This document shows positions 4,706 to 23,054 of a stretch of DNA of 23,054 bases, in pieces. Made by a program: the position numbers and the translations under genes. Where the stretch lies: positions 1-23,054 of the IMG/VR virus record IMGVR_UViG_3300033997_000547. One strand, written 5' to 3'. This DNA is from a virus. The notes beneath the pieces were generated by a model. The model did no database searches. It worked only from the letters and a program-made list of their open reading frames with translations, and was not told the DNA's origin. Position 1 is the stretch's first letter. Every line of letters begins with the position of its first letter.

Positions 4706-4707
4706 CG

Positions 4708-6531: not shown

Positions 6532-6925
6532 GCTTCACCTGCGCTTTCCGCGTCGTCTTCACAGCCGAGCCTCGGCGACGAGGCGAGATGCAAAGCTCGG
6601 TTTCGAGAGCGGTGATTTGTTCGGAGGCCTGGCGCATGATCGGCCAGGCTGGATTGGTCTGCGGCACCTTGGTCCGGCGGGCCCGCAGGATCGCGCCGTC
6701 GCCAGCAAGGGACTTCGCGGCCCGTTCATAGATGACGCGGAACTCGACAAGGCGCTTGATCGCGTGGCCGTTCGCCACCGACAGCGTTCCCTCACCAGAC
6801 AACTCCCTAGTGACGATGCCCCACTGCTCGCGGGCCAACTCGATATCGAGAACGTCGTTATAGATCAGCGACCATTCCGGCTCGGGGGGCAGGCCGTCGC
6901 CGCCTGGGATTGTCGCTAATGACAT
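6494..6925 (-). CDS. Terminase small subunit, P27-like
   Basis: This 143-residue protein probably recognises the packaging site and loads TerL. The core 'YNDVLDIELAREQWGIVTREL' followed by 'LSVANGHAIKRLVEFRVIYERAAKSL' resembles P27-family small terminases, and the C-terminus is highly basic (RRRGSAVKTTRKAQVKRG). It precedes and overlaps TerL. ATG 6925 is chosen; a GTG two codons upstream (6931) lies within the ribosome binding sequence. That sequence, AGGGGGTGGGG, is part of a strong hairpin, so initiation may be controlled. It is the first gene after a leader of about 300 bases. Confidence 0.87.
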   Translation of the reverse strand: MSLATIPGGDGLPPEPEWSLIYNDVLDIELAREQWGIVTRELSGEGTLSVANGHAIKRLVEFRVIYERAAKSLAGDGAILRARRTKVPQTNPAWPIMRQASEQITALETELCISPRRRGSAVKTTRKAQVKRGSDEFLKPRSS

Positions 6926-6928
6926 CCC

Positions 6929-6945
6929 CACCCCCTACGGGGGTG
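6929..6945 (-). promoter_or_regulatory. Hairpin that sequesters the TerS ribosome binding site
   Basis: On the minus strand CACCCCC, loop GTA, GGGGGTG forms a perfect seven-pair stem. Its 3' arm carries the AGGGGG ribosome binding sequence, five bases before the TerS ATG at 6925. Pairing would hide the site from the ribosome. The fold is seen in sequence; its regulatory role is inferred. Confidence 0.5.
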
Positions 6946-7227
6946 ACCGAAACCCCCCTTCCTAAAATTCGATTCAGTGCGAACGGAGGATGGCTGCCGG
7001 TCCCCAGGCCGAAGGTCTCCAGAGATTTATACCCCCCTACCCCCTCACCTTGAGGCAGCGCGCTCGCCCGTGGCGTCCCTGAAGGTCCGCGCTTGGATTG
7101 GGACGGGCGAGGCGCTGAGCCTACAGCACGCTGCAGGCGGGTATGGTGGAGCGAGGGGCGGGGTTCAGCCCCGCCTGTCCCTGTCGGGGATTAGGGTTGC
7201 GCGCGGCGCCCTCGCATAGACGTTCGC
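6932..7227. other. Non-coding leader before the packaging genes
   Basis: This stretch separates the 82-residue gene from TerS and is the longest gene-free gap in the window. I see no credible gene on either strand. It contains a perfect seven-pair inverted repeat at 7157-7175 (GGCGGGG, five-base loop, CCCCGCC) without a T tract, a TATAAAT box on the minus strand at 7025-7031, G-rich tracts near 7032-7047 and 6951-6962, and a GATTC (GANTC class, the CcrM methylation motif in alphaproteobacteria) at 6971-6975. It could hold a late promoter or a cos/pac site. Confidence 0.6.
7025..7054 (-). promoter_or_regulatory. Possible promoter for the packaging-head operon
   Basis: TATAAAT (minus strand, 7031-7025) is a good -10 match in otherwise GC-rich sequence and lies about 100 bases before TerS. 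The -35 position 17 bases upstream (CTCAAG, 7054-7049) is poor, so if this is a promoter it may need an activator. A GANTC site lies about 50 bases downstream. Confidence 0.28.
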
Positions 7228-8510: not shown

Positions 8511-8511
8511 A

Positions 8512-8541
8512 AGTGTAGGATCTCTGTGTGCATTAAGTCAG
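8512..8541 (-). promoter_or_regulatory. Candidate promoter upstream of the HNH genes
   Basis: On the minus strand CTGACT (8541-8536) and TACACT (8517-8512) are separated by 18 bases, each matching the sigma70 -35 and -10 consensus at four of six positions. They sit in a locally AT-richer island within the gap 8440-8617, the only sizeable gap between the replication genes and the HNH genes. The rest of that gap holds no convincing gene. Confidence 0.33.
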
Positions 8542-8617
8542 CGTGAGCCGCAAGAGGCGGGCCTTGTTGCTTTTAGGTGGGCAGCCAGCGTCTCCCCGCG
8601 CCAGCTGCCCTCGACCA

Positions 8618-9475: not shown

Positions 9476-9476
9476 G

Positions 9477-9755: not shown

Positions 9756-11032
9756 GCGGCGGCCTCCATGGCTTCGTGGACGAGGCCGACGCCGAGGCGC
9801 TTGAACAGCGCGCCGCATTGGGCCTTGAGCCGCTGGTGGATCGTCGCGTTGCGGCAGACGACGGCGCGTTCGGGCAGGTCGCGCCAGGCGCAGACGTCGA
9901 GGTAGCTGATGGCGAACTTCTCGCCAGCCTCGGCGTCTCCGCCCCGGCTGTCGGCGATGTGCGCCACCACGTCGGCGCGGATGTCCTCAGGCCCGGCCCA
10001 AGCGCTGGGGCCGCGATCGACGCCATGGTCGCCCTGCTTGGCGTAGGCCTTCCAGTCGCCGCGTCGCAGCCAGTTCAGGATGCTTGGCACGCCCCTGCCC
10101 TCCCTCGCCTTGGCCGCGCTGGACCGCGAGAACGCCTTGACCGCCTCGATCAGTTGCTCCTCGCCGCCGGCCTCAGCCGCCACGTCTGGCCAGGCGGCCT
10201 CAGCCTGGGCGAACTTGGTCTGGCCTATCGCCGGATATGCGTCGAAGGCCTCCTGGAAGCGATTTCCATGTTCCGCGTCGCCCCCCTCCAAGGGGGGTAG
10301 GGGGGATAATATTCTATTCTCTTCTTTTGCGTCCGCACCGCGTTCGCCCTGCGTTGGCATTGCGGACGCAGTGCGTTCGCCATGAGATCGCACCCCGTCG
10401 CCTTCGGTATCGCCCTGCGTTCGCGCAGCGGGCGCGGTGCGTCCGTCAGAGGGAACTGACGGCGCGTCAGGTTCCGTTTTGGTTCCGGACGATTCGGCGT
10501 CCGTTGAGCCCCAGATCGCCAAGGCTTCGACCACCGCGGGCTTGTTGAGGACGCTGGCCTGAGGGTTCAGGGCGCTCAGGCGAATGGCGAGATCGGCCAT
10601 CTGGGCCGTCAGGTCACGACCACCGCTCAGGGTCTTTCCCTGGCTGGCGTTGCCCTTGGCGCCGGCGGCCTTCAGGGTCAGACGCTCAAGGAGCTGCTCC
10701 AGGGCCTTCTCGGCCACGACGGGGTGATACCACCGCCCATCGGCGCAGAGGACGAAGCCGCTCATCACCTCGTCCTTGATCTTGAGCCACTCGCCCATGG
10801 CCCGGCTAAACCCAGCCATGCCGGCCAGCTCGCGGTCCTTGTTGTCGAGGCTGGCGGCTGGGGTCTGCTGCCAGGAGGCGCACCAGAGAAGGACAGAGGC
10901 GCGGAACACCTCGGGGTTCTCGTGATTGGCCACGCCGCTGTCGCGCAGGCGCTGGACGTCGAGCAGCATGCTCGGCAGGTGGGCGACGCAGCTATCCGGA
11001 GGCGTCATGGGCTTGGGCAGGTGAGCGGTCAT
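9752..11032 (-). CDS. DUF1376-like phage replication protein
   Basis: This 426-residue protein has an N-terminal DUF1376-like domain (about 15-130): 'VFRASVLLWCASWQQTPAASL' and 'CADGRWYHPVVAEKALEQL' are characteristic. DUF1376 proteins occupy the initiator position in many phages and are thought to act in replication start or helicase loading. A long Thr/Gly/Glu-rich linker (about 175-260) leads to a helical C-terminal domain with 'FDAYP.I.QTKFAQAEAAWPDV' and 'VPSILNWLRRGDWKAY', found in phage O-like proteins. It begins directly after the DnaB stop. The linker DNA contains repeats and an AT-rich run that may be an origin. Replicative function is inferred from domain and context. Confidence 0.82.
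   Translation of the reverse strand: MTAHLPKPMTPPDSCVAHLPSMLLDVQRLRDSGVANHENPEVFRASVLLWCASWQQTPAASLDNKDRELAGMAGFSRAMGEWLKIKDEVMSGFVLCADGRWYHPVVAEKALEQLLERLTLKAAGAKGNASQGKTLSGGRDLTAQMADLAIRLSALNPQASVLNKPAVVEALAIWGSTDAESSGTKTEPDAPSVPSDGRTAPAARTQGDTEGDGVRSHGERTASAMPTQGERGADAKEENRILSPLPPLEGGDAEHGNRFQEAFDAYPAIGQTKFAQAEAAWPDVAAEAGGEEQLIEAVKAFSRSSAAKAREGRGVPSILNWLRRGDWKAYAKQGDHGVDRGPSAWAGPEDIRADVVAHIADSRGGDAEAGEKFAISYLDVCAWRDLPERAVVCRNATIHQRLKAQCGALFKRLGVGLVHEAMEAAA
10281..10384. other. Candidate replication origin inside the DUF1376-like gene
   Basis: Two 18-base repeats matching at 15 positions start at 10334 and 10367 (33 bases apart; core GCGTTCGCC), with related GCGTT-containing copies near 10350 and 10417. 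Next to them is a 23-base run, 10306-10328, with 19 A or T in GC-rich surroundings, and a C6/G6 inverted repeat at 10281-10297. Iterons plus an AT-rich run within the initiator gene is the lambda O/ori plan. It might instead be only a low-complexity protein linker. Confidence 0.4.
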
Positions 11033-12541
11033 CTATGCGTCTCCGGTCTGATAGCTGCGGGTGGTGGTGGCGTTGTCGCGGGCCTGGGCGAAGTACTGCT
11101 GGCGGGCGAGGTTGCCGAACTGGGTCAGGTCGTCGTTGAACGACAGGCGGACGGTCCCGATCGGGCCGTGGCGTTGCTTGGCGATGATCAGCTCGGCGAG
11201 GCCCTGGACCTTGTCCATCTCCTCAAGCCAGGCCTGATGTTCTGGCGTGCCTTCGCGAGGTTCGGCGCGGCCGAGGTAGTAGGCTTCGCGGAACACGAAC
11301 CACACCATGTCGGCGTCCTGCTCGATCGAACCCGATTCACGAAGGTCCGAGAGCTGGGGCCGCTTGTCGTCGCGCTGCTCGACCTGGCGGGACAGCTGGG
11401 ACAGGGCGATCACCGGGACGCCCAGCTCCTTGGCCATGGCCTTCAGCGCCATGGTGACCATCGAGACTTCCTGGACGCGGTTGGCGACGCTGGCCTGCTG
11501 GCCCGTCGTGACCAGCTGCAGGTAGTCCACCACGATGAGGTCGAGGCCCGTCTGGCGCTTCTGGCGCCGGGCCCGGGCGAACATCTTGGCGATGCTGATG
11601 CCGCCGGTGTGGTCGATGTAGAGCGGGGCTTCCTGAAGCTCGATCGCCGCGTCGCGGACCCGGCCGAACTCGGTCGCTTCGATATCGCCCTTGCGCATGC
11701 GGTCGGAGCTGACGCCGGCGGCGCTGGCCAGGATCCGCAGCGTCAGCTGCTCGCCGCTCATCTCCAGGCTGAAGAACATCACCCGCCCGCCCGCGACGGT
11801 CTTGTGCGTGCCGTCCGGCTGGACCTCGTAGGCGTAACGCTTGGCGATGTTGAAGGCGATATTGGTCGCCAGGGCGGTCTTACCCATCGACGGGCGGCCG
11901 GCCAGGATGATCAAGTCAGGGCTCTGCAGCCCGCCGATCTTCTGATCCAGGTCGATCAGGTCCGTGGCGATGCCCGCCATGCCGCCTTCGCGGCTGAAGG
12001 CCTCGGCGGCCATCTGCAGGGCCGACGTGAGGTAGTGGGCGAATGGGCGCGGCCCGCTCTCCGGGGTCCCGGCCTCGGCCAAGGCGTAGAGCTTCTGCTC
12101 CGCCGCCTCGATCTGGTCGCCCGGACCAATATCGGTGTTTTTCGCCGTCGCCGCGATGTCGGCGCTGACGCTGATCAGGCCGCGACGCAGGGCCAGCTCG
12201 TGCAGGACCTTGGCGTATTCCTGAGCGTAGGACGCGGGCGGCGCGTTGGCGACTAGGCCGGCCAGGTACTGGACGCCGTCCGCCTCGAGGTCGACCAGGG
12301 CGGGGTCGTTCTTCAGCTGGCTGGCCAGCAGCGCGGGTTCGGCCAGGCCGCCCTTGCGGATCTGCTTTTCGATCGCGTCGAACAGGCGGCCGTGGAACGG
12401 CTCGAAGAAGGTCGAGGCCTTGACCTGCGGCACGCGCTCATAGGCGGCGTTGTCGAGCAGCAGGATGCCCAGCAGGGCCATCTCGGCGTCGAGGTTATGG
12501 GGAAGGCCGTCGGCCTCGAACAGGGCACTACCGTCGGCCAC
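11033..12541 (-). CDS. dnaB: Replicative DNA helicase DnaB
   Basis: This 502-residue hexameric helicase would unwind the phage replication fork. The N-terminal DnaB domain ('PHNLDAEMALLGILLLD') covers about 13-115; the RecA-like ATPase has Walker A 'GRPSMGKTALA' (215-225), 'FFSLEMSGEQL', Walker B 'LIVVDYLQLV' (335-344), 'ALSQLSRQVEQR' and the Arg-rich 'LRESGSIEQDAD' to 'FNDDLTQF' end. All expected motifs are present; it carries a short extra loop at about 236-252 (VQPDGTHKTVAGG). The start is GTG 12541 behind a strong GGAGGA. It overlaps the preceding gene by 14 bases and abuts the DUF1376-like gene, so helicase and probable loader or initiator are co-expressed. Confidence 0.95.
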   Translation of the reverse strand: MADGSALFEADGLPHNLDAEMALLGILLLDNAAYERVPQVKASTFFEPFHGRLFDAIEKQIRKGGLAEPALLASQLKNDPALVDLEADGVQYLAGLVANAPPASYAQEYAKVLHELALRRGLISVSADIAATAKNTDIGPGDQIEAAEQKLYALAEAGTPESGPRPFAHYLTSALQMAAEAFSREGGMAGIATDLIDLDQKIGGLQSPDLIILAGRPSMGKTALATNIAFNIAKRYAYEVQPDGTHKTVAGGRVMFFSLEMSGEQLTLRILASAAGVSSDRMRKGDIEATEFGRVRDAAIELQEAPLYIDHTGGISIAKMFARARRQKRQTGLDLIVVDYLQLVTTGQQASVANRVQEVSMVTMALKAMAKELGVPVIALSQLSRQVEQRDDKRPQLSDLRESGSIEQDADMVWFVFREAYYLGRAEPREGTPEHQAWLEEMDKVQGLAELIIAKQRHGPIGTVRLSFNDDLTQFGNLARQQYFAQARDNATTTRSYQTGDA

Positions 12542-12896
12542 GATGTTCCTCCCGCGTCATCAGGCCTAGCGTCAATGCGGCGGCTTTGGGGGACAGGGTG
12601 CGCGGAGGCTTGCGTTTGACCACGACAAGGCTGCCATCGCGCATGCGGACCACCGCTTCAGCGAGCGGCCCGGTAGCGACCGCCGCGATCACTTCATTGA
12701 GCGTGCGTCCGCTGCGGCCCCATCCGAAGACGTCAAACCCGCTCAAATACTTCTCGCGGATCATCATGATCTCAGAGACGCCACGGCCGAAGGTGAGATC
12801 TAGTTGAACCGGGGCGCTGGGCGGACACGGCGCCAGGAAGTGCGGCTTGTCGCAGGCGGGACACCTCCCGACCCAGATCTTGGAAGGATCATTCAT
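12528..12896 (-). CDS. 122-residue protein with N-terminal CxxC, unknown
   Basis: The protein starts MNDPSKIWVGRCPACDKPHF; Cys12 and Cys15 plus Cys24 could form part of a zinc site. The middle, 'EIMMIREKYLSGFDVFGWGRSG' then 'TLNEVIAAVATGPLAEAVVRM', is mixed helix and strand, and the C-terminus is basic. ATG 12896 follows GGGGAGGTGGG and overlaps the upstream gene by eight bases; an earlier ATG at 12926 lies inside that ribosome binding region's gene and is rejected. I recognise no family. Its coding end provides the ribosome binding site of dnaB, so the two are probably translationally linked. Confidence 0.72.
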   Translation of the reverse strand: MNDPSKIWVGRCPACDKPHFLAPCPPSAPVQLDLTFGRGVSEIMMIREKYLSGFDVFGWGRSGRTLNEVIAAVATGPLAEAVVRMRDGSLVVVKRKPPRTLSPKAAALTLGLMTREEHRGRR

Positions 12897-13164
12897 GCCC
12901 ACCTCCCCGGGTGAAGACGTCAACAAACATCTCTTTGACGGCAGCTAGGACGGCGGCGGCCTTGGAGATCGACATCTCCACCACCTTGGCTGCATCGCGT
13001 CGGCGCCCCTTGGCCATTTCGGCAAACGCCTCATCTGGCCTGTCGCGGTGAGCCCGCTCCCAGCCTTCGGCGCGGGCGATCAGGTCGTCATGCTCGAGCC
13101 ACGCCGGCGGGTCGATGATCCGCGCCAGCCGCTCCAGGTGAGGTTTCGTCGCGGCGTCAGACAT
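12889..13164 (-). CDS. Small helical protein, unknown
   Basis: This 91-residue, probably all-helical protein reads MSDAATKPHLERLARIIDPP at the start, then a charged helix 'LIARAEGWERAHRDRPDEAFAE' region and a hydrophobic helix 'AAAVLAAVKEMFVDVF', ending 'TRGGGHE'. No cysteine or catalytic motif appears. It overlaps its neighbours by eight bases at each end. The Gly-rich terminus coincides with the ribosome binding site (GGGGAGGTGGG) of the next gene, so those residues may be dictated by that signal. Confidence 0.7.
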   Translation of the reverse strand: MSDAATKPHLERLARIIDPPAWLEHDDLIARAEGWERAHRDRPDEAFAEMAKGRRRDAAKVVEMSISKAAAVLAAVKEMFVDVFTRGGGHE

Positions 13165-13396
13165 GACCACCGTCCCCGACGTCAGAATACCGGCGAGCCT
13201 CTTGGACCATCCTGTCCAATTTCCCTTGGGCGATCGCCTTCTGGCGGGCGGGGCAGCGCTTGAACTCGACAATGCGGACGTAGTCGATCGTCGATCGGAC
13301 GCGGTGATGCGTGAACAGCCAGAAGCCATCGGGGCCCTTGCGGCCGTTAAGCCGCATCTCACGGCGGGATTTCATTGCGCGGAGCAGCATCGTCAT
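13157..13396 (-). CDS. Small basic protein, unknown
   Basis: The 79-residue protein starts MTMLLRAMKSRREMRLNGRK and is rich in Arg and Lys (calculated by eye as clearly basic), with a single Cys48. A central 'GFWLFTHHRVRSTIDYVRIVEFKR' looks like beta strands, followed by a helix. The ATG overlaps the preceding TGA by four bases. It ends in 'GDGGHV', again over the GGTGGTCATG that starts the next gene. Nucleic-acid binding is possible from charge; no family is recognised. Confidence 0.68.
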   Translation of the reverse strand: MTMLLRAMKSRREMRLNGRKGPDGFWLFTHHRVRSTIDYVRIVEFKRCPARQKAIAQGKLDRMVQEARRYSDVGDGGHV

Positions 13397-13821
13397 TGAC
13401 CACCGCCCTGGGCAACAGGCCCGATCGGAGCAGCCCAACGGGCAGTGGGCATCCAGACGTAGTCGTCGCGCTGCCAACTGGGGCGATGGGTCGGCGGTTC
13501 GCGCCAGACGTAGAAGTCGGCGTGCTCCCAGCAGTAGAAGCCGCCAGCGATGGCGATGCCGCCGCTATCAAGCCGAGCGTGGCTGCTGCATTCCTCACAC
13601 TCGAACCACCAGCCGTGCTCGAATAGGTCCTCTCGCGAAGGTCCGTGCGGCGCCATGCTGTCGAACTCTGGCGCTCGGCGGCACTCCCAGCCGTGGAAGT
13701 CACCGTCGCCGAACTGGCAGGATCCTTCGCGCCGGGCCTGGGCGTTCGTCTTGGCGTAGACGATCCCGCCGGTGCCTTCTGTAGTCTCGGTGACAGCGTA
13801 GGCCTTGAGGGGCTTGCTCAT
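13393..13821 (-). CDS. Conserved phage protein with Cys-rich core, unknown
   Basis: This 142-residue protein begins MSKPLKAYAVTETTEGTGGI and contains 'CRRAPEFDSMAPHG', 'HGWWFECEECSSHARL' and 'FYCWEHADFYVW'. The combination 'YAVTE..GTGGIVyAK.N..AR' with 'CRRAPEFD' and 'HGWWFEC..C' is one I recall from many phage hypothetical proteins. Cys75/Cys78 and Cys97/His100 could form a zinc site. It shares its first residues (MSKPLKA..VTET) and its last (QGGGQ) with the upstream gene, though the middles differ. The ATG overlaps the upstream TGA. Function unknown. Confidence 0.8.
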   Translation of the reverse strand: MSKPLKAYAVTETTEGTGGIVYAKTNAQARREGSCQFGDGDFHGWECRRAPEFDSMAPHGPSREDLFEHGWWFECEECSSHARLDSGGIAIAGGFYCWEHADFYVWREPPTHRPSWQRDDYVWMPTARWAAPIGPVAQGGGQ

Positions 13822-14210
13822 TGACCACCGCCTTGGATGAGGGTGTTCAGAAGCTCGCGATCACGGGCGCAGGTGGGGCATTCCACCGACCGCTTGCGGT
13901 ATCGGAGGCCCACGGTGACCGTCGTGCTGACTTGGCCGGTGCCGCCGCACGGTCCGCACTGTTTGATGTCAGCCTTGATCCGTTCGACCAGCTCGGCCGT
14001 CAGGCGGCTGATCTCAATCGCGTTGCCGAGCGCCACGTGCGCGAACTGTTGCACGCGCTCAAGCGCCATCTCCAGATCACGGGTCCCGACGCAAGCAATG
14101 CCCTGGTCAGGGTGGGGCTCGGTGTTCTTCAGGCGGGCGAACGCGAGCGGCCATTCTGCGTCATCAGCCAGCGTCTCCGTGACTGGGTTGGCCTTCAGGG
14201 GCTTGCTCAT
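13801..14210. repeat. Direct repeat at the starts of two neighbouring genes
   Basis: Bases 13801-13821 and 14190-14210 match at 20 of 21 positions and encode the shared start MSKPLKA of the two genes. The similarity extends to VTET. At the gene ends, the 14-base string cattgaccaccgcc occurs at 13394 and again at 13819. Confidence 0.85.
13818..14210 (-). CDS. Protein with DnaJ-like zinc motif, unknown
   Basis: The 130-residue product has a helical middle ('LEMALERVQQFAHVALGNAIEISRL') and a C-terminal zinc-finger-like module, 'CGPCGGTGQV' (85-94) and 'CPTC' (111-114). CxxCxGxG is the repeat of the DnaJ zinc domain, here only one repeat plus a closing CxxC, as often seen in small phage proteins. 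ATG 14210 overlaps the upstream stop by four bases. An earlier in-frame ATG at 14315 sits inside the upstream gene and is rejected. N- and C-termini match the next gene downstream. Confidence 0.75.
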   Translation of the reverse strand: MSKPLKANPVTETLADDAEWPLAFARLKNTEPHPDQGIACVGTRDLEMALERVQQFAHVALGNAIEISRLTAELVERIKADIKQCGPCGGTGQVSTTVTVGLRYRKRSVECPTCARDRELLNTLIQGGGQ

Positions 14211-14587
14211 CGGCGCTTCTGGCTCCGCTTGAAGTTGCGACGGCTCCTGGTCAGCCAGGGCTTTTCGGTCTGCATGCGCTGAGGACGAAGTGGGGCTTTG
14301 ATCTCCGCCGGCCATCGCGCCTGTGCGGTCAGAAGGCGATCTAGCGTCTCGAAGTCGTCCTTGCTGATGACGCCGTGACCCGTGAATGTGTCCGGCGTCG
14401 AGAACAGCTGGCAGATCTCGGCGATCTGCTCGCGGCGGGTCTTCAGGATACCGACACCCACGATCATCGGGTTGGCGCTAAAGACCATCACCGCCTCGTC
14501 GGAGGTGGTGGACAGGTCCACCCCTACGATCTCCAGCTCGGCCCCATCGACGAAGAGCCGGCCAGTGCCGAAGTGGTAACCGCTCAT
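14207..14587 (-). CDS. 126-residue protein with basic tail, unknown
   Basis: The protein starts MSGYHFGTGRLFVDGAELEI, a beta-rich opening, followed by 'MVFSANPMIVGVGILKTRREQ' and a helical segment. The last 25 residues (from about 'PLRPQRMQTEK' to 'NFKRSQKRR') are strongly basic and may bind nucleic acid. It starts at the end of the primase gene with an ATGA overlap. No family is recognised; position suggests a replication accessory. Confidence 0.7.
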   Translation of the reverse strand: MSGYHFGTGRLFVDGAELEIVGVDLSTTSDEAVMVFSANPMIVGVGILKTRREQIAEICQLFSTPDTFTGHGVISKDDFETLDRLLTAQARWPAEIKAPLRPQRMQTEKPWLTRSRRNFKRSQKRR

Positions 14588-16194
14588 GCCGCCCTCCCCT
14601 TGGCGTTGTGCTGCGCCTCGCGGATCCGATCCTCGAGGGCGGCGCGGTCGGCCTTCAGGCGGGCGATGTCGGCAATCGCGCCTGGTGCGGTGATGTCGGC
14701 GGCCAGGCCTGCGATGGAGCGATCCAGCTCCTCGCGGGTCATCAGCAGGTCGGCCAGCAGCGCCTCCGCCTCGCTGAGCCCTGGGCGGTCGAGGAGCACG
14801 TAGAGCCGGTCCTTGCCGAGGCGCAGCCCGTTGGCGGCGGCCTTCAGCGCGGCCGAGGCGCCGAGCGTGACGGGGGGCACGGCGCGGTTGCGCTCGTAGT
14901 GGTTCCTGGCCTGCGGAGCGGCGAACATCGCTTCGAACCGGCCCAGCAGATCCCGGCGATAGGATTCTGACAGATCGCGGTCCTTGATCGCGCCAGCTGC
15001 GGCCTTCAGGCGGACGCGCAGCCCGGTGCGAGCCTCTGGCGTCCCGAGGCGCTCGGCGTGCAGCTCCATGGACCAGAGCGCGTCGACCATCGGCATGCTG
15101 TCGCGCATTTGGGCGACCACCGCCTCGGCGCCCTGCTCGCGCAGCACGTCGTCAGGATCCTTGCCGCCCTTCGGCGTGGCGAAGCGGAAGGTGCGCGTGG
15201 CGCCGAGCAGCGGCATGGCGCGCTCGACTGTCCGGCGCGCCGCGTTCTGGCCGGCCTTGTCACCGTCGAAACACAGGGTCGGCTCGGGGTGGATGCGCCA
15301 GAGCAGCTCCATCTGCTCTTCGCCCAAGGCCGTACCCATCGCCGCGACGGCCGCAACGCCGGCGCGCTGGCAGGCGATGACGTCCATATAGCCTTCGACC
15401 ACCGCCAGGACGGCTTCGCGCGGGTCGGACGGCAGCAGGCGGCGCGCCTCGGGCAGGCCGTACAGGACCCGGCCCTTATGGAAGACGGGCGAATCCGGGC
15501 CGTTCAAGTACTTCGCCCGGGCCGCCGGATCGAGCGCCCGCCCGCCGAAGCTGATCACCCGGCCTCGGCCATCGGTGATGGGGAACATCACGCGGTTACG
15601 GAAGCGGTCGTACGGCGCGCCGCCGTCTTCCGGGGCGATCAGCAGGCCAGCCTCGACAAGCTCGCCCGGCTTCGCGCCCTTGGCGACGAGGTAATCCTTC
15701 AGGGCGGTGCGGCTCTCCGGCGCATAGCCGATGCGGAACCGGCCCCACTCGGTCGACGGGAAGCCCCGGCCGCTCAGGTAGCGTTGGGCGTCGCCGCCTA
15801 CGGGGCGGGTCAGGTTCGCCTGGTACCAAGCCGCCGCCAGCTCCAGCCAGTCCAGCAGGCCGCCGCGGCGCCTGTCTTCGGCGGCGTCGCGCGGATCCTG
15901 GGTCGGGATCGACATACCCGCCTCGGCGGCCAGGCGCTCGACCGCCTCGGCGAAGGTCAGGCGCTCGGTCTCCTGCAGGAACGCAATGACGTCGCCATGC
16001 TTGCCGCTGCTGAAGCAGTGGTAGAAGCCCTTGTCGTCGTTGACGAAGAACGACGGGCTCTTCTCCTTGGCGAAGGGCGAAAGGCCTGCGTATTCACGGC
16101 CCTGGCGGCGCAACTTCACCGTCTTGCCGATCAGGTCCGAGGGCCGGATGCGGACCTTCAGCTCTTCCAGGAAGCTGTCTGGGAAGCGGCTCAT
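14584..16194 (-). CDS. dnaG: DNA primase DnaG with altered zinc site
   Basis: This 536-residue primase would lay RNA primers for phage replication. The N-terminal CHC2 zinc fold is present in shape ('YAGLSPFAKEKSPSFFV', 'GFYHCFSSGKHGD'), but the ligands Cys, His, Cys, Cys are Ser39, Ala42, Cys60 and Ser63, so zinc binding is probably lost. The RNA polymerase domain follows ('RIGYAP', 'RNRVMFPITD..GRVISFGGRAL'), then TOPRIM with 'EGYMDV' (267-272) and 'DGDKAG' (310-315). The C-terminal helicase-binding part (about 430-536) is short and helical. ATG 16194 overlaps the upstream stop; it is coupled to the next gene. Confidence 0.94.
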   Translation of the reverse strand: MSRFPDSFLEELKVRIRPSDLIGKTVKLRRQGREYAGLSPFAKEKSPSFFVNDDKGFYHCFSSGKHGDVIAFLQETERLTFAEAVERLAAEAGMSIPTQDPRDAAEDRRRGGLLDWLELAAAWYQANLTRPVGGDAQRYLSGRGFPSTEWGRFRIGYAPESRTALKDYLVAKGAKPGELVEAGLLIAPEDGGAPYDRFRNRVMFPITDGRGRVISFGGRALDPAARAKYLNGPDSPVFHKGRVLYGLPEARRLLPSDPREAVLAVVEGYMDVIACQRAGVAAVAAMGTALGEEQMELLWRIHPEPTLCFDGDKAGQNAARRTVERAMPLLGATRTFRFATPKGGKDPDDVLREQGAEAVVAQMRDSMPMVDALWSMELHAERLGTPEARTGLRVRLKAAAGAIKDRDLSESYRRDLLGRFEAMFAAPQARNHYERNRAVPPVTLGASAALKAAANGLRLGKDRLYVLLDRPGLSEAEALLADLLMTREELDRSIAGLAADITAPGAIADIARLKADRAALEDRIREAQHNAKGRAA

Positions 16195-16397
16195 GCGACG
16201 CTCCAGGTGTATTCGCCGCAACGGTCCTTAGGATCGGTCACGGGCCATTCGGCCCTCACATCCGATCCGATAACGACGGCGGTTGGCGGGTAGCGCCGGC
16301 ATTGCAGTTCGCCGCGCTTCAGTCCTGTGTCGTGGGAGTGGGCGCACGTCCTGCAACTGGCCGGGGCAGTCGGGAACTTTATTGGAGGCAGCTTCAT
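16191..16397 (-). CDS. Small four-Cys protein
   Basis: This 68-residue protein has Cys15, Cys18, Cys33 and Cys60 ('CRTCAHSH', 'LQCRRYPP', 'DRCGEY'), enough for one zinc or iron-sulfur site. 'C.tC.hs......g...CrryPP' is a common pattern in tiny phage proteins of unknown role. It overlaps the nuclease gene upstream and dnaG downstream by four bases each, bridging the modification and replication modules. Its link to the primase, which lacks its own zinc ligands, is only positional. Confidence 0.8.
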   Translation of the reverse strand: MKLPPIKFPTAPASCRTCAHSHDTGLKRGELQCRRYPPTAVVIGSDVRAEWPVTDPKDRCGEYTWSVA

Positions 16398-17095
16398 GCC
16401 GCGACCTCATCGGCCCGGGCGAACGGCCGGCCGCGCAGGGCAGTGCAGACTCCCTCGCGGATCTGGCGGCCGGTCAGGTGTTCGAGCGCGAGCCGCTTAT
16501 TGATCTCGCGCGTGGCCTTCGGCGTTGTCCCGACACGGTGACGCGCCATCAGGTCGCGAAGCTCGTCAGCCCAGAGCAATTCGAGCTGGGCGCGCGGATC
16601 AGCGGCGTGCTCCATCACGTCGCGCAGCCAGTGGGCGCCCTGGTAGGGGTCCAGGTCGGCAAACCCGTCGTCGGTTTCGACCATGATCCGCACGCGGCGC
16701 AGCTCGTCGATGTACTCCGGGTTGGGCCGGGTGTAGCCAGCCCTGCCGCCACCGGGCTTCTCGACCCAGTCGTAGATGACCAGGCCCGCGCTATCCTTCA
16801 GGGAGCTGGACAAAGCGTTGAGCAATGCGGCCCGGTGCTTCTCGGTGACGTAGAGACGCACGTCGCCCGTGACGCGCAGCGCAGCCGAGACCTGATCGCG
16901 CAGCCGCTTCAGGACGTCCCGCTCGCTCTTGATCTCCACCAGCGTGATCGCCTCGGGGCGAACAGCACCGACGTCGAGCCGAATGCCGCCCCAAGACATA
17001 TTCAGCTCGTGGATGATGCGCGCGGACGGGAACTCGCGGCGCAGCGCGGCCTCGACCTTGGCGCGGATCCGTTCCTCTGCCGGGGAGCCCGCCAT
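16394..17095 (-). CDS. PD-(D/E)XK-like nuclease
   Basis: This 233-residue protein has a nuclease-like core near its N-terminus: helix 'EERIRAKVEAALRREF', then 'IRLDVGAV' with Asp41, and 'TLVEIKSERD' with Glu54 and Lys56, the D...ExK triad, followed by a helix 'LKRLRDQVSAALR'. The C-terminal half ('DLDPYQGAHWLRDVMEHAA' onward) is helical and ends in an Arg-rich segment. This is the architecture of DNA endonucleases that supply the cleavage part of restriction or repair systems. It starts directly after the helicase-methyltransferase stop, which suggests partnership. A repair or MmcB-like role is an alternative. I am confident of the fold, not the substrate. Confidence 0.72.
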   Translation of the reverse strand: MAGSPAEERIRAKVEAALRREFPSARIIHELNMSWGGIRLDVGAVRPEAITLVEIKSERDVLKRLRDQVSAALRVTGDVRLYVTEKHRAALLNALSSSLKDSAGLVIYDWVEKPGGGRAGYTRPNPEYIDELRRVRIMVETDDGFADLDPYQGAHWLRDVMEHAADPRAQLELLWADELRDLMARHRVGTTPKATREINKRLALEHLTGRQIREGVCTALRGRPFARADEVAA

Positions 17096-19612
17096 CTAGG
17101 CCGCCTCCCCCACGTCGTTCCGGCCGGCGTCCAGGACGTCGAACAGGGTCGGCTGGGTCACCTCGAACTCGGCGGCCGTCAGGTAGCGGAGGCTGTCCTT
17201 GAAGTACTGCTCGTTCAGCTCCGAGCCGTAGCCGCGACGGCCCAAGGTGACGGCGCGGACCGGAACGGTGCCAATACCGGCGAACGGGTCATAGACCAGG
17301 TCGCCCTTGGCCGAGCAGAACCGGATGACACGGTCGACGATGTCGATCTGCAGGGGGCAGACGTGCTTCTCGCGGTTGCCCAGGGACTGCTCGTTGTTGA
17401 GCGTCAGCACCCGGACGATGTCGGTCCAGACGACGCCCGTCGGCGATTCCAGGGCCAGGGCGGCGAAGGTCTTCGGCAGGGCGCCGCGCTCGGCCAGGGC
17501 TTCGGCCAGGCGAACGTGGTCTTCGTGGTCATAGACCACCCGGCCCGACTGCTCTCGGAAGGCGCGCTGCAGCTGCTTGGGTGGCAGGGCGGCCAGCTCG
17601 TCGACGGTCAGGTACCGATCACCACCGCTGCGCCAGTAGGAGGCGGCGTCGATCTGCCACCGCGCCAGGCTGTACTCGTCCAGGCCCTTGGTCACCGGAT
17701 CGTCGGCATAGCCGCGCGAAAGGTCGGTCTGGGCCTTGCGGAAGAACAGCATGTACTCCGGCGAGCCGGAGCCCATCTTCGTGGCATCCTTGCGCATCTC
17801 GGAGTAGCCGAGGCGATAGGTCTGGTTGTTCTCCCGAACCACGTCCGTCTCGATCGGGCGGACCGCCAGAAGGTGGAAGCCGTGCTTGCGGTAGTGGGCA
17901 ATGCAGTCGGCGTGGAACGGCTCGACGGTCGGGAAGCTCAGGCCCGTGACGTTGCCGAACAGGATGCGGTCCTTGACGTGCACGGCCAGGATCCGGCCGG
18001 GCTTCAGGATCCGGAGCAGCTCCGGCGTCAGGAAGTCTAGCTGGTCGAAGAACGCGCCGTTGTCGCGGTTGTGGCCGAAGTCATTGTAGCTCTCGCAGTA
18101 CTCGTACTGCGTCCCGAACGGGATAGAGGTCAGGATCAGGCCGACGTGGTCGCTGGGCATGCGACGGGCCTCGTCGACGCAGTCGTTGTTGACCGCGGTC
18201 CAGCGCTCGCCGCTTTCCTGGCGCCGGGTGACGCCGATGCTCCGGCGCATGGTCTCGACCGCCGCGATCCGGCCCAAGCCGTACTTGCGGATGATCTCGG
18301 TCATGCGCTCGCGAAGCTCGATGTCGCGGGCCCACTTCTCCTCGAGGTTCCGGCGCTGCTCGCGCTCGGTCTCGGCGTAGACGATGTCGATCACCACAGG
18401 ATGGGCCTGGCCGAAGCGCTGGATCCGGTGGATGGCCTGAATGAAGTCGCGGAACTTCGGCCCGATGCCGGCGAAGATGGCCCGGTGGCAGTGGCGCTGC
18501 AGGTTACCCCCCGCGCCGAGCATCACCGGCTTTGCGGCAAGGTCGCTCAAAACGCCGTTCTTGAAGTCGCGCAGGATCTGGTCGCGTTCGTCCAGGTCCT
18601 GGGTCCCGTAGATGGCCTTGGCCTGAGGCAGCGCCGCGGCGATCGCCTCGCGCTCCGCCTCGAGGTCGTGCCAGATGATGAAGTGGTTCTCCGGCTCGGC
18701 CTCGCGCAGCTCCTTGACCTTGGCGACGCGGGTCGGGAGCGTGTCGCGCTTCTCGCGGGCCGCCTCCTGCAGGCTCACCGCGGCGTCGCGCAGGAGCTTC
18801 ATCTGGCCGCGCGCGTCGCAACCGGCGTCGGTGATGTCCGCCTGGACCTCGTGCCAGCGGACCTCCAGCTCGGGGAGGACGTAGCCCTCGTCGCTGTAGC
18901 CAAGGTCCGAGGGCTTTTGAAGGAAGATCGCCCAGGTCGAGGCCCAGAGCCAGAATTCGTCTTCCTTGTGGGGGTAGAGGGTCAGGTCGCCCGCCTTCTC
19001 GGCGTTGCGTTGGAAGAAGCGCGTCAGGGCCTGGCCTGTGTCCATGGCGCCGAGGAAGCCGGCGTAGTGGATCAGCTCCTTGTAACGGTTCGGCGAGGGC
19101 GTGGCCGTCGCGACGTAGCGGAACGGCACCGGCTCGAACGCCGGCATGAACTCCTGGAAGGTCTTGGAGCCGTAGCTCCGGAGCACGTCGGCCTCGTCCA
19201 GGCTGGCGAAGATGAAGCGGCTGGGCGTGATCTTGCCCTCGCGCACGCTCTCGTAGTTCGTCAGATGCATTTTGCCCGGCTGGATCTCGGCGTCGGTCTG
19301 GATGAAGACCAGCTCGATCCCCATCGTGGCCGCGTCGTCGAAGAACTCCTGCCGCACGCCCAGCGGGGCGACGATCAGGCCCTCGCCGGCATGACGCATC
19401 AGGACCTGGCGGCCGGTCTCCAGCTGCATCGACGTCTTGTGCAGTCCGTAGCTGGTGAAGTAGGCGCGGCAGCCGCCGGCGAGGCCCCACTGGACGATCG
19501 CCTTGCAGTGCGGCTTGAGCCACGGGTGCAGCTCGTCGATCTCGACATGGAAGCCGGTCGTCGGCGCCGCGATCGCCTTGTCTTCCAGGAACTTCAGATA
19601 GGCGTCGGTCAC
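17096..19612 (-). CDS. SNF2-like helicase / DNA methyltransferase fusion
   Basis: This 838-residue protein joins two enzymes. Residues 1 to about 420 are an SF2/SNF2-type ATPase: motif I 'SYGLHKTS' (54-61, His where Gly is usual), motif II 'LDEAD' (138-142), motif III 'ATATPSP' and motif VI 'HRIQRFGQ' (395-402). Residues about 465-805 are a beta-class amino-methyltransferase: motif IV 'TSIPF' (495-499), a long target-recognition region with 'VVRENNQTYRLGYSE', and C-terminal SAM motif 'DPFAGIGT' (775-782). That motif order fits N6-adenine or N4-cytosine methylation. Similar fusions occur in other phages, probably for self-protection or antirestriction. The start is GTG 19612 in a GTGA overlap. 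Confidence 0.9.
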   Translation of the reverse strand: MTDAYLKFLEDKAIAAPTTGFHVEIDELHPWLKPHCKAIVQWGLAGGCRAYFTSYGLHKTSMQLETGRQVLMRHAGEGLIVAPLGVRQEFFDDAATMGIELVFIQTDAEIQPGKMHLTNYESVREGKITPSRFIFASLDEADVLRSYGSKTFQEFMPAFEPVPFRYVATATPSPNRYKELIHYAGFLGAMDTGQALTRFFQRNAEKAGDLTLYPHKEDEFWLWASTWAIFLQKPSDLGYSDEGYVLPELEVRWHEVQADITDAGCDARGQMKLLRDAAVSLQEAAREKRDTLPTRVAKVKELREAEPENHFIIWHDLEAEREAIAAALPQAKAIYGTQDLDERDQILRDFKNGVLSDLAAKPVMLGAGGNLQRHCHRAIFAGIGPKFRDFIQAIHRIQRFGQAHPVVIDIVYAETEREQRRNLEEKWARDIELRERMTEIIRKYGLGRIAAVETMRRSIGVTRRQESGERWTAVNNDCVDEARRMPSDHVGLILTSIPFGTQYEYCESYNDFGHNRDNGAFFDQLDFLTPELLRILKPGRILAVHVKDRILFGNVTGLSFPTVEPFHADCIAHYRKHGFHLLAVRPIETDVVRENNQTYRLGYSEMRKDATKMGSGSPEYMLFFRKAQTDLSRGYADDPVTKGLDEYSLARWQIDAASYWRSGGDRYLTVDELAALPPKQLQRAFREQSGRVVYDHEDHVRLAEALAERGALPKTFAALALESPTGVVWTDIVRVLTLNNEQSLGNREKHVCPLQIDIVDRVIRFCSAKGDLVYDPFAGIGTVPVRAVTLGRRGYGSELNEQYFKDSLRYLTAAEFEVTQPTLFDVLDAGRNDVGEAA

Positions 19613-19914
19613 GGGCGCACCTCCTGGCCGGCGTCGGCGCCTTGGAATGGGAACGGAGGTGGCGACGGCGGCGCCATGGCGCTGTTCTCGCGCGCGGCCC
19701 AGGTCAGCAGCACCGTGTTCATGCCGAGCGCGCCGCGGTACGGCGGCAGCTCGTAGCAGACGTAGGCGGCGAAGCCGGCTGGGGTCAGTTCGACCCGCTG
19801 ATGCGGCTTGAACCGGGCGAATTCGGTGTCGAGGCGGGCCAGCACCACCGCCCCGTCGGCAGTGACGCAGTGCCGGATCGCCTCCATGGGCAGGGTCCAG
19901 GCCGGGCCGATCAT
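19609..19914 (-). CDS. 101-residue protein between two methyltransferases
   Basis: The protein starts MIGPAWTLPMEAIRHCVTAD and carries 'RLDTEFARFKPHQRVELTPAGFAAYVCYELPPY', a mixed fold with no catalytic motif, then a Pro-rich disordered tail (APPSPPPFPF). It overlaps the truncated C5 methyltransferase and the helicase-methyltransferase by four bases each. It sits where the missing C-terminal half of the C5 enzyme would be expected, but I do not see convincing motif IX or X. Function unknown. Confidence 0.7.
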   Translation of the reverse strand: MIGPAWTLPMEAIRHCVTADGAVVLARLDTEFARFKPHQRVELTPAGFAAYVCYELPPYRGALGMNTVLLTWAARENSAMAPPSPPPFPFQGADAGQEVRP

Positions 19915-20750
19915 GCCGCGATCCTTTCCTGTTCGGGCGCGTAGTCGGCCGCGATCAGCTCGCGCCATTCGACCTTGTAGCCGAAGTGCTCCAGCTTCCC
20001 GACCCAGAGCCGGAAGATAAGGCCCTTGTGGCGCGGATCCGGCTGGCCAGCCTTGTAGAGCCGCCCCTTGCGGCGGCCGTCGCGGTCCTGGCCGTGCAGT
20101 TCGGCGGCGGCGTCGACCGCAGGGCGGATGGCGCTCTGCAGGTCGGCCTCGGTCGGGTCGATCGTGTCGAAGAGCGAGAGCTGCTCGGCCGCAACCAGCT
20201 TGTCAGCCTGCTCGGCTAGGGTGGCGATCTCGTCGTCGAAGATGAAGGTGTCTTCCTCGAGGAGCGGACCCCAGTCCTGGAATTCTTCGACGTTCTCCAG
20301 GGCGATGACACGCGGCCGGACCTGGGCGGCCCAGCGAACCACGATCCATGCGAGCGACCGGATCTTCTTCTCGCGCGGCTTGCCGCCGCGGGCCTTCGAG
20401 TGGTGCTTGCAGTCGGGCGAGGCCCAGAGCAGGCCCACCTTGCGCTCACCACCGCACGGGCGACGGAATTCGGCGATCGCCTCCTTGGGGCAGACCTCGT
20501 TGACGTCGGCGCAGTAGTGCCGGGTCGTGGGATGGTTCGCGGCGTGCAGCGCGACCGCTTCCTTGTCGTGATTGATCGCGATGTCCGGGTGACGGCCCGT
20601 GGCCATCAGGATCGCGGTCGATGCGCCGCCGCCGCCGGCGAACAGATCGACGATCAGCTCGTCGTTGTCGTTGGCGTGGGGCGGGGTCCAGGGAGCCTTG
20701 GCATGGCCCAGATCTTCCAGGACCTGGCGGGCAGCAGCTGCAGCGCTCAT
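19911..20750 (-). CDS. C5 cytosine methyltransferase, truncated at motif VIII
   Basis: This 279-residue protein has the N-terminal half of a DNA cytosine-5 methyltransferase: SAM motif I 'DLFAGGGG' (35-42), the catalytic Cys in 'SPDC' (111-114, motif IV, followed by 'KHHSKARGGKP') and motif VI 'ENVEEF' (152-157). A charged insert of about 70 residues (163-235) follows, then 'LEHFGYKVEWRELIAADY'. Related phage enzymes continue with 'GAPT.RKR' and about 200 further residues with the target-recognition domain and motifs IX and X; here the chain ends 'APEQERIAA'. It may be inactive, act with a partner, or have another role. ATGA overlaps occur at both ends. Confidence 0.86.
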   Translation of the reverse strand: MSAAAAARQVLEDLGHAKAPWTPPHANDNDELIVDLFAGGGGASTAILMATGRHPDIAINHDKEAVALHAANHPTTRHYCADVNEVCPKEAIAEFRRPCGGERKVGLLWASPDCKHHSKARGGKPREKKIRSLAWIVVRWAAQVRPRVIALENVEEFQDWGPLLEEDTFIFDDEIATLAEQADKLVAAEQLSLFDTIDPTEADLQSAIRPAVDAAAELHGQDRDGRRKGRLYKAGQPDPRHKGLIFRLWVGKLEHFGYKVEWRELIAADYAPEQERIAA

Positions 20751-20998
20751 GCTGGTTTCCTTTGCTTCCAGTGAAGGGCGAACACCTCGCGGTCGAAGAC
20801 CTCGAAGGCGGCCTCCTCGCAGGCGAGTTGGATGAAGAAGTCGGCCAGGCGCAGGGCGTAGGCCGCGCCGCTCTCGCCGGGCTGCTGTTCAGCCGGGGCG
20901 GACGGATCGCCCGCCTCGATGCGGCGCTGGCCCTCGGCCAGAATGTCAGCGATCTGGGGGCGCCGGATCGTCAGGGTGTCGACGTGCACGATCTTCAC
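20747..20998 (-). CDS. 83-residue acidic helical protein, unknown
   Basis: Translation starts at GTG 20998, overlapping the preceding TGA as GTGA; the protein reads MKIVHVDTLTIRRPQIADIL, an opening beta strand followed by helices 'GAAYALRLADFFIQLACEEAAFEVF'. It is moderately acidic in the middle with one Cys. It ends 'HWKQRKPA', overlapping the C5 methyltransferase start. No family is recognised. Confidence 0.7.
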   Translation of the reverse strand: MKIVHVDTLTIRRPQIADILAEGQRRIEAGDPSAPAEQQPGESGAAYALRLADFFIQLACEEAAFEVFDREVFALHWKQRKPA

Positions 20999-21570
20999 GA
21001 CACCACCGCCAACTCTGGCCAGCGGAACACGCGCACACGATGACGGCCGAGGGTCACGTCGTTTCGGACGCGCGGTCCCTCGTTCCAGGCCATGGCGACG
21101 GCCTCGCCGTCGGGATGGTCGATCCCGCGCAGGATGATCGCGCCGCAAGGGCCGTGACCCAGGTAGAGCGCGACGTCTCCGGCTTGGGTGCGCGCGGCTC
21201 CCCTGCCCTCGACGATCTCCATGCCCGCGTCGATCAGGACCGCCTGCAGGTCGGTGGCGTCCGGTTCGACCGTGACGGCGTCGGCTGGCGTCAGTCCCTG
21301 GGGCGGGATCTTGGTGGGATACGCCTTCAGCGGCATATCGAGCAGGGCTCGCGTCCTCCGCTTCGCCATGAATGCGCGGGCATCGAACGTCATCTGGACG
21401 ACCTGCCGCACGAACCCGAACCCGTCGAACGCGAGCGGCCCACGGCCGCCCATCTCGAACGATGGCTGCAGCGAAAGCAGGTAGAGCGCGGCGTCCGCCA
21501 TCATCTCGCCGGCGGGCAGTTCCCGAACGGGGATGCCATTCAAGCTGCTGATCGCCGTCTCGCTCAGCAT
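20995..21570 (-). CDS. NlpC/P60-like fold protein without the catalytic Cys
   Basis: This 191-residue protein carries 'FEMGGRGPLAFDGFGFVRQVV' (partial run, residues 38-58), which aligns with the NlpC/P60 active-site helix 'wGG..p.gFDCSGFVqyv'; Gly50 and Phe51 replace the Cys-Ser, so the nucleophile is missing. Further on, 'AGDVALYLGHG' (130-140) matches the 'pGDlvff' strand, and 'CGAIILRG' could be the next strand. Peptidase activity is therefore unlikely. Phage NlpC/P60 proteins normally lie among tail genes; this one is among early genes. ATG 21570 follows a good AGGAGG. The homology is my reading of motifs and is uncertain. Confidence 0.6.
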   Translation of the reverse strand: MLSETAISSLNGIPVRELPAGEMMADAALYLLSLQPSFEMGGRGPLAFDGFGFVRQVVQMTFDARAFMAKRRTRALLDMPLKAYPTKIPPQGLTPADAVTVEPDATDLQAVLIDAGMEIVEGRGAARTQAGDVALYLGHGPCGAIILRGIDHPDGEAVAMAWNEGPRVRNDVTLGRHRVRVFRWPELAVVS

Positions 21571-21866
21571 CGAGCCCTCCTCTTGGCGTTCTGCTGGATC
21601 TGCTCGGCTGCGCTGAAGGCCTGGCCCGACAGGCTGGCCAGGTGCGTGCCGGTCGCGGAGGGGCCGCAGGCCTGGGCCGCGTTCATCGCGCTGGCGGTGC
21701 ACAACTCGCGCGCCAGGTCCTGGCGCTCGTTCGGGTCGATGACGTCGCGCATCACGCCCGCCACCGTGTCGAGGGCGCGTTCGCGCATCCGGCCGCGCCT
21801 GGCGCTACGCTCGCGATCGCCGTCGATGCGGCTCACGACGTGGGTCTCGCGACGGTTCAGGCCCAT
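21564..21866 (-). CDS. 100-residue basic protein, unknown
   Basis: The protein starts MGLNRRETHVVSRIDGDRER and its first third is Arg-rich; the remainder is helical and Ala-rich ('ARELCTASAMNAAQACG', 'LASLSGQAFSAAEQIQQNA') with a final 'KRRARC'. ATG 21866 overlaps the GcrA-like gene by ten bases; the in-frame ATG at 22046 lies well inside that gene and is rejected. Downstream it supplies the ribosome binding site of the NlpC/P60-like gene. No family is recognised. Confidence 0.68.
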   Translation of the reverse strand: MGLNRRETHVVSRIDGDRERSARRGRMRERALDTVAGVMRDVIDPNERQDLARELCTASAMNAAQACGPSATGTHLASLSGQAFSAAEQIQQNAKRRARC

Positions 21867-22597
21867 TGCCGCATCGCCCCCGTGCGACGGTCGATCTCGC
21901 CGCGCGCCTTGCGCTTCTGCTGGGTGTTCGGCGAGGTCTGGCCCTTGCGGGTATGATGCTCGCACCACTGGCGGCCTCCGGACCGGGGCGACACCGGATC
22001 GCAGCAGGCCATCAGCTCGCCAGCGATCGTGATCGGCCAAGAGCATTGGGCGCGCCCGCGCTCCATGAACGGCTGGGGGTTCTGCGGCTTAAAGGCTTCA
22101 GGCTTCATCGTGACCATCGGCGCGGCGGGAGACGTGGCCGGCGCGGTGGCGACGACCTTCAGAACAGGCGGCTTGGCGGGCTTGGGCGCAGGGGCCGGTT
22201 TCGGAGCGGGCGCGGGCTTCCGCTGGCGGGGGCGACCCTGCCGCGGGGCGGTTTCCGAGTTGAACTGGGCGAGCTCGCGGGCCCGGCTGCGGTTCGTGTC
22301 GTTCAGCGCCTCGCTGCGCTTCAGGCCGAGGCGATCGACCTTCCCGAGGACAGCGTTACGCGTGACGCCGAGCTGCATGGCGATCTGGGACGCCGTGTCG
22401 CCAGCGAGCCAGCGCTGCTTGAGGACGTCGACATCCGCGTCCGGCCAGCCGCCGGCTCGGGTGCGGCTGACCTCCTGGTACTTGTTGACCGTGTGCCGGG
22501 ACACCCGGAGACGGTCCATCACGTCTTCTTGGCTGACGCCCTGGCGCCGGAGCGAGACGATCTTATCGACGACGGTCGGGTCGATTGGGCTGCCCAT
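21857..22597 (-). CDS. GcrA-like cell-cycle regulator with extra N-terminal HTH
   Basis: GcrA is an alphaproteobacterial sigma70-binding activator of promoters with methylated GANTC sites. This 246-residue protein has its two hallmarks: the DNA-binding module 'WPDADVDVLKQRWLAGDTAS' (51 onward) with 'QLGVTRNAVLGKVDRLGLKR', and a C-terminal 'CSWPI' ... 'CEHH' sigma-interacting module near 185-218. They are joined by a long Pro/Ala/Lys linker ('PAPAPKPAPAPKP'). Unlike GcrA, it has about 45 added N-terminal residues forming a second helix-turn-helix ('QGVSQEDVMDRLRVSRHTVN'). GGAGGT precedes ATG 22597. Phage control of host or phage promoters is inferred. Confidence 0.85.
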   Translation of the reverse strand: MGSPIDPTVVDKIVSLRRQGVSQEDVMDRLRVSRHTVNKYQEVSRTRAGGWPDADVDVLKQRWLAGDTASQIAMQLGVTRNAVLGKVDRLGLKRSEALNDTNRSRARELAQFNSETAPRQGRPRQRKPAPAPKPAPAPKPAKPPVLKVVATAPATSPAAPMVTMKPEAFKPQNPQPFMERGRAQCSWPITIAGELMACCDPVSPRSGGRQWCEHHTRKGQTSPNTQQKRKARGEIDRRTGAMRQWA

Positions 22598-22598
22598 G

Positions 22599-23054
22599 TC
22601 AGACCTCCACGATGTCGACGCCGTGCAGGGCGGCGACGAGTTTCTTCTTGAGGCGGTAGACGGCGTTGTCGGCGGTCGCTTCGGACTTCACGTCCTCGAC
22701 CACACGGTCGCCGCGGCCGAACCCGTCCGGCGCGAAACGCGGATCCACGACCACGTAGGCCGCGTCGGCTCGGTAGGCGCCGACGGTTACCGGCTTGCCC
22801 GTCCGCTTGTCCGTGACGACGAAGGGGAACTCCGGCTGCAGCTGCAGGTCGCTGATCTTGCCCAGGCGGACCAGGCGCTTCAGTTCAGCAACGCGGCGGG
22901 ATTCCTTGGCGGAATCGTAGACCACGCCGTCCATCTCGGTCCGGACGTTGCCGTACTTGCTGCGCTTGCCCTTCTCGCCCTTAGCCAGCTCGGGATGCTG
23001 AGCCAGAGCTGCGGCGCGCAGGTTCGGCGGGAGGCTGTCGAGGGGGATGCCCAT
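22599..23054 (-). CDS. DUF1064-family nuclease-like protein
   Basis: This 151-residue protein matches the DUF1064 pattern: 'KYGNVRTEMDGVVYDSAKESRRVAEL', 'LGKISDLQLQPEFPFVV', 'YRADAAYVV' and 'RVVEDVKSEATADNAVYRLKKKL'. The conserved Glu51, Asp97 and 'EDVKS' are what a PD-(D/E)XK or Holliday-junction-resolvase-like nuclease needs, and the family is common in phage replication regions. The ATG is the last codon of the window, so a longer N-terminus cannot be fully excluded. It is separated by a single base from the GcrA-like gene and its end carries that gene's ribosome binding site. Confidence 0.87.
   Translation of the reverse strand: MGIPLDSLPPNLRAAALAQHPELAKGEKGKRSKYGNVRTEMDGVVYDSAKESRRVAELKRLVRLGKISDLQLQPEFPFVVTDKRTGKPVTVGAYRADAAYVVVDPRFAPDGFGRGDRVVEDVKSEATADNAVYRLKKKLVAALHGVDIVEV

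Follow-up and report, generated by a model that had tools for sequence, protein, structure and literature searches.

A review (PMC7403470) and PMC3667746 describe GcrA as a sigma-activator, which binds both sigma2 and methylated promoters; in the same review, binding to region 2 of sigma70 is described for Caulobacter GcrA. The C-terminal domain of the Caulobacter protein is its sigma-interacting part. GcrA proteins of phage origin have already been reported (PMC3556154, PMC6630229, PMC11309003, PMC12429752, PMC9437464). They are encoded by phiCbK-like Caulobacter phages (PMC3556154) and by Brevundimonas phages, among others, and have been discussed as tools acting on the host cell cycle or replication machinery (PMC3556154, PMC9437464, PMC6630229). 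In Brevundimonas subvibrioides, the structural operon of a prophage is described as dependent on GcrA (PMC7987155).

While phage GcrAs as such are known, the locus described here appears to encode a new variant, which carries a second, N-terminal helix-turn-helix (HTH). No description of an HTH-GcrA fusion was found among the papers listed in literature searches, as judged by titles and the openings of abstracts. The gene lies in a virus record of IMG/VR, the 23,054 bases of which are called the window in this work, and this origin bears out the original prediction that the protein is phage-borne. Ten proteins of the window were scanned, with a large terminase, a DnaB-like helicase, and a DNA primase among them.

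Domain structure of the HTH-GcrA protein

The gene, its parts, and its upstream neighbour are located as follows:

22599..23054, minus strand: upstream gene, DUF1064 / Holliday-junction-resolvase-like (PF06356, 5e-12; phrog_190, 2.3e-24)
21857..22597, minus strand: HTH-GcrA protein, 246 aa
22475..22579, minus strand: extra N-terminal HTH, residues 7-41
22319..22450, minus strand: GcrA DNA-binding domain, residues 50-93
22073..22318, minus strand: variable linker, residues 94-175
21860..22072, minus strand: GcrA-type C-terminal domain and long C-terminal helix, residues 176-246

The Pfam model of GcrA (PF07750) matches residues 51-226 with an E-value of 8.5e-20 (72.1 bits against a cut-off of 26.9) and is covered from position 3 to position 151 of 155. 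The top PDB sequence matches are chains of Caulobacter GcrA, such as 7ye1_G (1.7e-10, residues 50-235). The NCBIfam model of the chromosomal GcrA equivalog (NF050816) gives 60.4 bits, far below its curated cut-off of 280, and therefore, by profile score, the product is a member of the GcrA family and not the chromosomal equivalog. Among the control genomes, that of the archaeon Sulfolobus acidocaldarius also gives a match to the Pfam GcrA model above the cut-off.

The protein was modelled with AlphaFold2 from 49 sequences (mean pLDDT 81.8, pTM 0.44), and two trihelical HTH units (residues 7-41 and 53-90) were predicted with high confidence. The second unit, with helices at 53-65, 69-76, and 80-90, is followed by a further helix at 96-116. 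Its best fold match is 5yiv_A, the DNA-binding domain of Caulobacter GcrA (target TM-score 0.91, rmsd 0.8, 44 columns); the Foldseek E-value of this match is 7.3e-3, and no match is as low as 0.001. In VIA-align, 5yiv_A and 5yiu reach Z-scores of 9.1-9.2 (9.1 for 5yiv_A). Over the two comparisons, the rmsd to the Caulobacter domain is 0.8-1.1 for 44 residues. Comparison of the predicted structure with Caulobacter GcrA, together with the profile match, thus places the protein in the GcrA family. The linker is poorly predicted, with low confidence at residues 151-164, and the long C-terminal helix spans residues 223-245. The C-terminal domain carries the pattern C185, W187-P188, C198, C212, and H215, in which the cysteines and the histidine are kept in at least 90% of the 49 rows and could form a zinc site. 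The likeness to Caulobacter crescentus GcrA (PDB 5YIV, 7YE1) extends over the DNA-binding domain, the linker, and the C-terminal domain with its C/WP/C/C/H pattern; the window protein differs in being encoded by a phage gene and in possessing the extra N-terminal HTH.

The additional HTH is matched by HTH_23 (PF13384) over residues 13-40 (1.4e-6, 28.4 bits against a cut-off of 24.6), with 22.3 bits, under the cut-off, when the same model is run in genome mode, and its predicted helices lie at 7-18, 23-30, and 34-41. The original prediction of a further HTH in front of the GcrA core is therefore confirmed at the level of domain match and confident trihelical model, and it gains from conservation in a relative, L012. 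The HTH-GcrA protein of this syntenic relative is 54% identical to that of the window and has the same layout of HTH, GcrA DNA-binding domain, linker, and C-terminal domain. There is no N-terminal Pfam match above the cut-off in L012, so the case for its HTH rests on homology.

The ATG at which the 21857-22597 reading frame opens is probably the true start, even with internal GTG and ATG codons present within the HTH, because the spacing to the upstream gene is tight and the HTH keeps 55% amino-acid identity with L012. In the window, the upstream stop and the start are one base apart (TGA-C-ATG); in L012, the TGA abuts the ATG. Between the two proteins, pN/pS is 0.51 in the HTH and 0.43 in the GcrA DNA-binding domain (also 55% identity), compared with 0.74 in the linker (38%) and 0.29 in the C-terminal domain (residues 176-220, 78%), which is the best conserved part. 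These values indicate that the extra HTH is under purifying selection, with a constraint similar to that on the GcrA domain.

A divergent protein of another phage, L032 (24-25% identical to the window protein), is predicted to share the same layout. Its HTH_23 match is weak (E 0.01, under the cut-off). The predicted helices of its HTH (7-18, 23-30, 34-43) form a block with a pLDDT of about 90, within a model of pLDDT 75.1 and pTM 0.36 whose alignment included the window and L012 proteins. We also considered whether the N-terminal HTH arose by duplication of the GcrA domain, and the support was weak, the alignment score being equalled in 75 of 2000 shuffles. For the HTHs of the window and L032 the number is 5 of 2000, and for the L032 HTH against the GcrA domain of the window it is 1 of 2000, so that such scores can be accounted for by HTH-like sequence in general.

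Distribution of the tandem-HTH form and gene neighbourhood

Two wide-pattern scans of viral contigs returned 116 and 126 GcrA-encoding stretches, and the 80 kept from each, 91 distinct contigs combined, were judged for an HTH by eye on their N-terminal extensions and by Pfam. Between 2 and 4 of the 91 show the tandem form: L012 and L032 carry the HTH, and the possible carriers are L085, with HTH_23 at 0.0067, under the cut-off, and L086, with an extension that lacks a Pfam match. A match in L049 also reached the HTH region; this candidate was rejected, as the reading frame with the GcrA core begins downstream of it. None of the 80 best-ranked genome loci has the tandem form, the start codon lying at most 9 residues from the GcrA core in 78 of them and 10-11 residues in two. 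In the 13 matching records of named phages, every alignment begins at residue 38 or later and leaves the extra HTH uncovered, and the plasmid records listed (20 of 22) align from residue 32 or later. Close relatives were found neither in a single-protein scan of viral contigs nor in the first genome scan, and a scan with the window-L012 pair recovered the L012 contig alone. The tandem-HTH form thus looks rare in these collections.

The DUF1064-like neighbour of HTH-GcrA is also present in L012. There, the order begins with a gene that we read as repressor-like (it has no Pfam domain of such kind), followed by a Cro-like and two winged-HTH-like proteins (all three with weak Pfam matches), the DUF1064-like gene, HTH-GcrA, more genes, and then a helicase-methyltransferase. 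This relative, labelled G001 in the alignment, matches window positions 3372-23054 block by block, the nucleotide identity being 71-94%, and its TerL protein is 92% identical. The window itself does not include the early control region. Among the 50 GcrA viral contigs searched for TerL (of 79), TerL was placed in 36; the GcrA gene lies upstream of it on the same strand, at 2.9-13.8 kb, in 31, on the same strand beyond it in 3 (possibly permuted contigs), and on the opposite strand in 2. An early-to-late gene order is common in temperate phages, and therefore this position alone says little.

The original prediction also pointed to methyltransferases beside the gene that could alter the methylation read by GcrA. 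Downstream on the same strand there are indeed two frames that match methyltransferases. Neither reaches the cut-off of the CcrM model, and for the window, which is a fragment, the link is not supported and was rejected; a CcrM gene may lie elsewhere in the phage. The frame at 17096-19612 is an N6/N4 methyltransferase fused to a helicase; the NCBIfam CcrM model (NF050803) gives it 26.8 bits against a cut-off of 830, over residues 758-811 only. Matches to this protein occur in 311 phage records, 146 from Mycobacterium phages and 85 from Flavobacterium phages among them, and in 302 of the 311 they span 80% or more of the protein; the 12 matches listed are all from Mycobacterium phages, at 55.5-55.8% identity. 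The cytosine-5 methyltransferase (19911-20750, minus strand) is perhaps truncated, as its Pfam match covers model positions 3-115 of 324, and it is skipped in the nucleotide alignment with G001 (19917-20762 unaligned).

GANTC sites and candidate target promoters

The window contains 14 GANTC sites where 115 (sd 9.6) are expected, and this observed/expected ratio of 0.12 is the lowest of the 16 NN-n-NN palindromes. Among loci of at least 8 kb, the ratio is 0.25 in 58 GcrA viral loci and 0.30 in 70 gcrA genome loci (Mann-Whitney p 0.016). The idea of a phage-specific depletion was rejected on this comparison; viral and genome loci are similar, as expected for DNA living with CcrM, and the window is low within the range of GcrA loci. 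The depletion in the window and in the genome loci fits a host with CcrM.

One site was examined as part of a candidate target promoter:

6925..7045, minus strand: region upstream of the small terminase gene (TerS), candidate target promoter, mostly within a block of 83% identity with G001
6971..6975, strand not assigned: GANTC site, 50 nt upstream of the TerS ATG (6925), conserved in G001

The site at 6971 is the sole one of the 14 that falls in a gap of the hand-made gene map. Sliding windows between position -50 and the TerS ATG have an identity of 0.85-1.0 to G001. Of the other alignable sites, 3 of 9 are conserved, all in predicted genes; the remaining four cannot be aligned. Conservation of 6971 is weak evidence, because the surrounding block is 83% identical overall. 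The sequence at 6971 deviates from YGAKTCK, the extended motif of GcrA given in PMC7987155; matches to this motif occur in the window at 2036, 10490, and 8951 (other strand), all in predicted genes. The terminase promoter may be regarded as one candidate target of HTH-GcrA. In the relative, the interval 1919-2393 of L012, which separates the repressor-like gene from the Cro-like gene, holds three GANTC sites. Of the four YGAKTCK sites present in L092, a stretch of 20.7 kb, two lie in this same interval.

Several minor features were noted around TerS. A G-rich inverted repeat, CACCCCCGTAGGGGGTG (window 6925-6960, minus strand), is placed directly before the TerS start and is fully conserved in G001. 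At about 3680-4436, G001 departs from the window immediately beyond the upstream edge of the TerS promoter block; the alignment ends at window position 7044, and short blocks then resume in another order.

Late promoters were also assessed across 35 phages, taking, from the 2.6 kb that precede TerL, the longest gap of up to 700 bp; genes were called with a simple codon model of our own, and the gaps selected in the window and G001 were other than the TerS-upstream one. GANTC was not enriched in the TerL-upstream gaps of these phages, with observed/expected ratios of 0.45 there, 0.37 in other gaps, and 0.18 in coding sequence; 17 of the 35 gaps hold a site. In a rougher earlier version, gaps held 1.44 sites per kb and coding sequence 0.91. 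The results do not support the idea that GcrA generally targets the late promoter.

Proposed role and reuse of GcrA parts

Our leaning, held with modest confidence, is that the gene encodes a GcrA-family transcription activator that depends on sigma70 and has two DNA readers. By analogy with Caulobacter GcrA, the C-terminal domain would bind region 2 of the host sigma70, and the GcrA domain would read m6A-GANTC set by the CcrM of the host. The N-terminal HTH, as we propose, would read a second sequence chosen by the phage and steer activation to particular promoters, the candidates being the phage's own terminase promoter and, in the relative, the repressor-like/Cro-like interval. Such action at phage promoters departs from the host-directed use discussed for other phage GcrAs. 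With HTH-GcrA, it could be tested directly whether host DNA methylation is used by phages to time the expression of their own genes. If the protein is indeed a natural GcrA with a second DNA reader, it would also reveal whether the specificity of this factor can be redirected.

The protein could instead be an ordinary GcrA of the phiCbK type, acting on host promoters and pushing the host towards replication, with the extra HTH as a minor accessory. Such a reading has been given for phiCbK-like phages (PMC3556154) and for the Agrobacterium phage Atu_ph08 (PMC6630229), and the GANTC depletion points to a host that likely has methylated GANTC promoters; as it leaves the constraint on the HTH unexplained, we consider it unlikely for this protein. 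With both GcrA modules kept, it would be physically possible for the protein to compete for sigma70 or methylated GANTC with the GcrA of the host and so to shut down GcrA-dependent host genes, but a decoy of this kind has no need of an extra HTH, which makes the idea rather improbable.

We assign a similarly low probability to a phage repressor, or an accessory protein of DNA packaging or replication, whose function would lie in the tandem HTH and whose C-terminal domain would have lost its binding to sigma70. The two HTHs do align with bipartite DNA-binding domains (Tc3, Pax, and tandem Myb) at middling scores; for the tandem Myb repeats, the Z-score is about 8 and the rmsd about 4 across both units. 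In these models, such matches may reflect a mere common arrangement, and the C-terminal domain is the most strongly constrained part of the protein. Returning to the activator with two DNA readers, the suggestion of the original prediction that sigma70 activation is aimed at a different DNA site is plausible, and it becomes more likely because GcrA parts are reused in a modular manner in other viral contigs.

Two examples of such reuse were found. In L077 (4998-5612, plus strand), a GcrA DNA-binding domain (4.3e-16) is fused to an HNH_2 endonuclease (4.1e-12). In L032, directly downstream of HTH-GcrA, a GP88/DUF7227 protein (5717-7192, plus strand) ends in a stretch that matches GcrA model positions 51-151 (28.3 bits for the protein, cut-off 26.9), and it thus has a GcrA-type C-terminal domain without the GcrA DNA-binding domain. 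A profile of the C-terminal domain finds this protein at 5.8e-10 as the one clear match among 12,978 ORFs. Its relatives among named phages (10 listed of 14) align over the GP88 part alone, and the search for relatives of the C-terminal-domain-only protein returned the same L032 contig alone.

This pattern suggests that the GcrA C-terminal domain is reused as an activation module. A broader idea, which we put forward as tentative and rather doubtful, is that in phages of alphaproteobacteria the sigma-binding domain of GcrA serves as a portable activation module whose DNA-reading part is swapped, as would be the case with the extra HTH and GcrA domain here and with the GP88-like protein of L032. 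Activation by the window protein would then need both a phage sequence and CcrM methylation by the host, and, if true, phage gene expression would be tied to the replication state of the host.

Some further arrangements were noted in passing. In L257, an ORF opening at 1171 (plus strand) has its GcrA part preceded by a stretch that, by eye, resembles a zinc ribbon with CxxC pairs. In L219 (2489), L223 (2498), and L221 (1998), all on the plus strand, a second small GcrA-core-like ORF lies near the gcrA-like gene.
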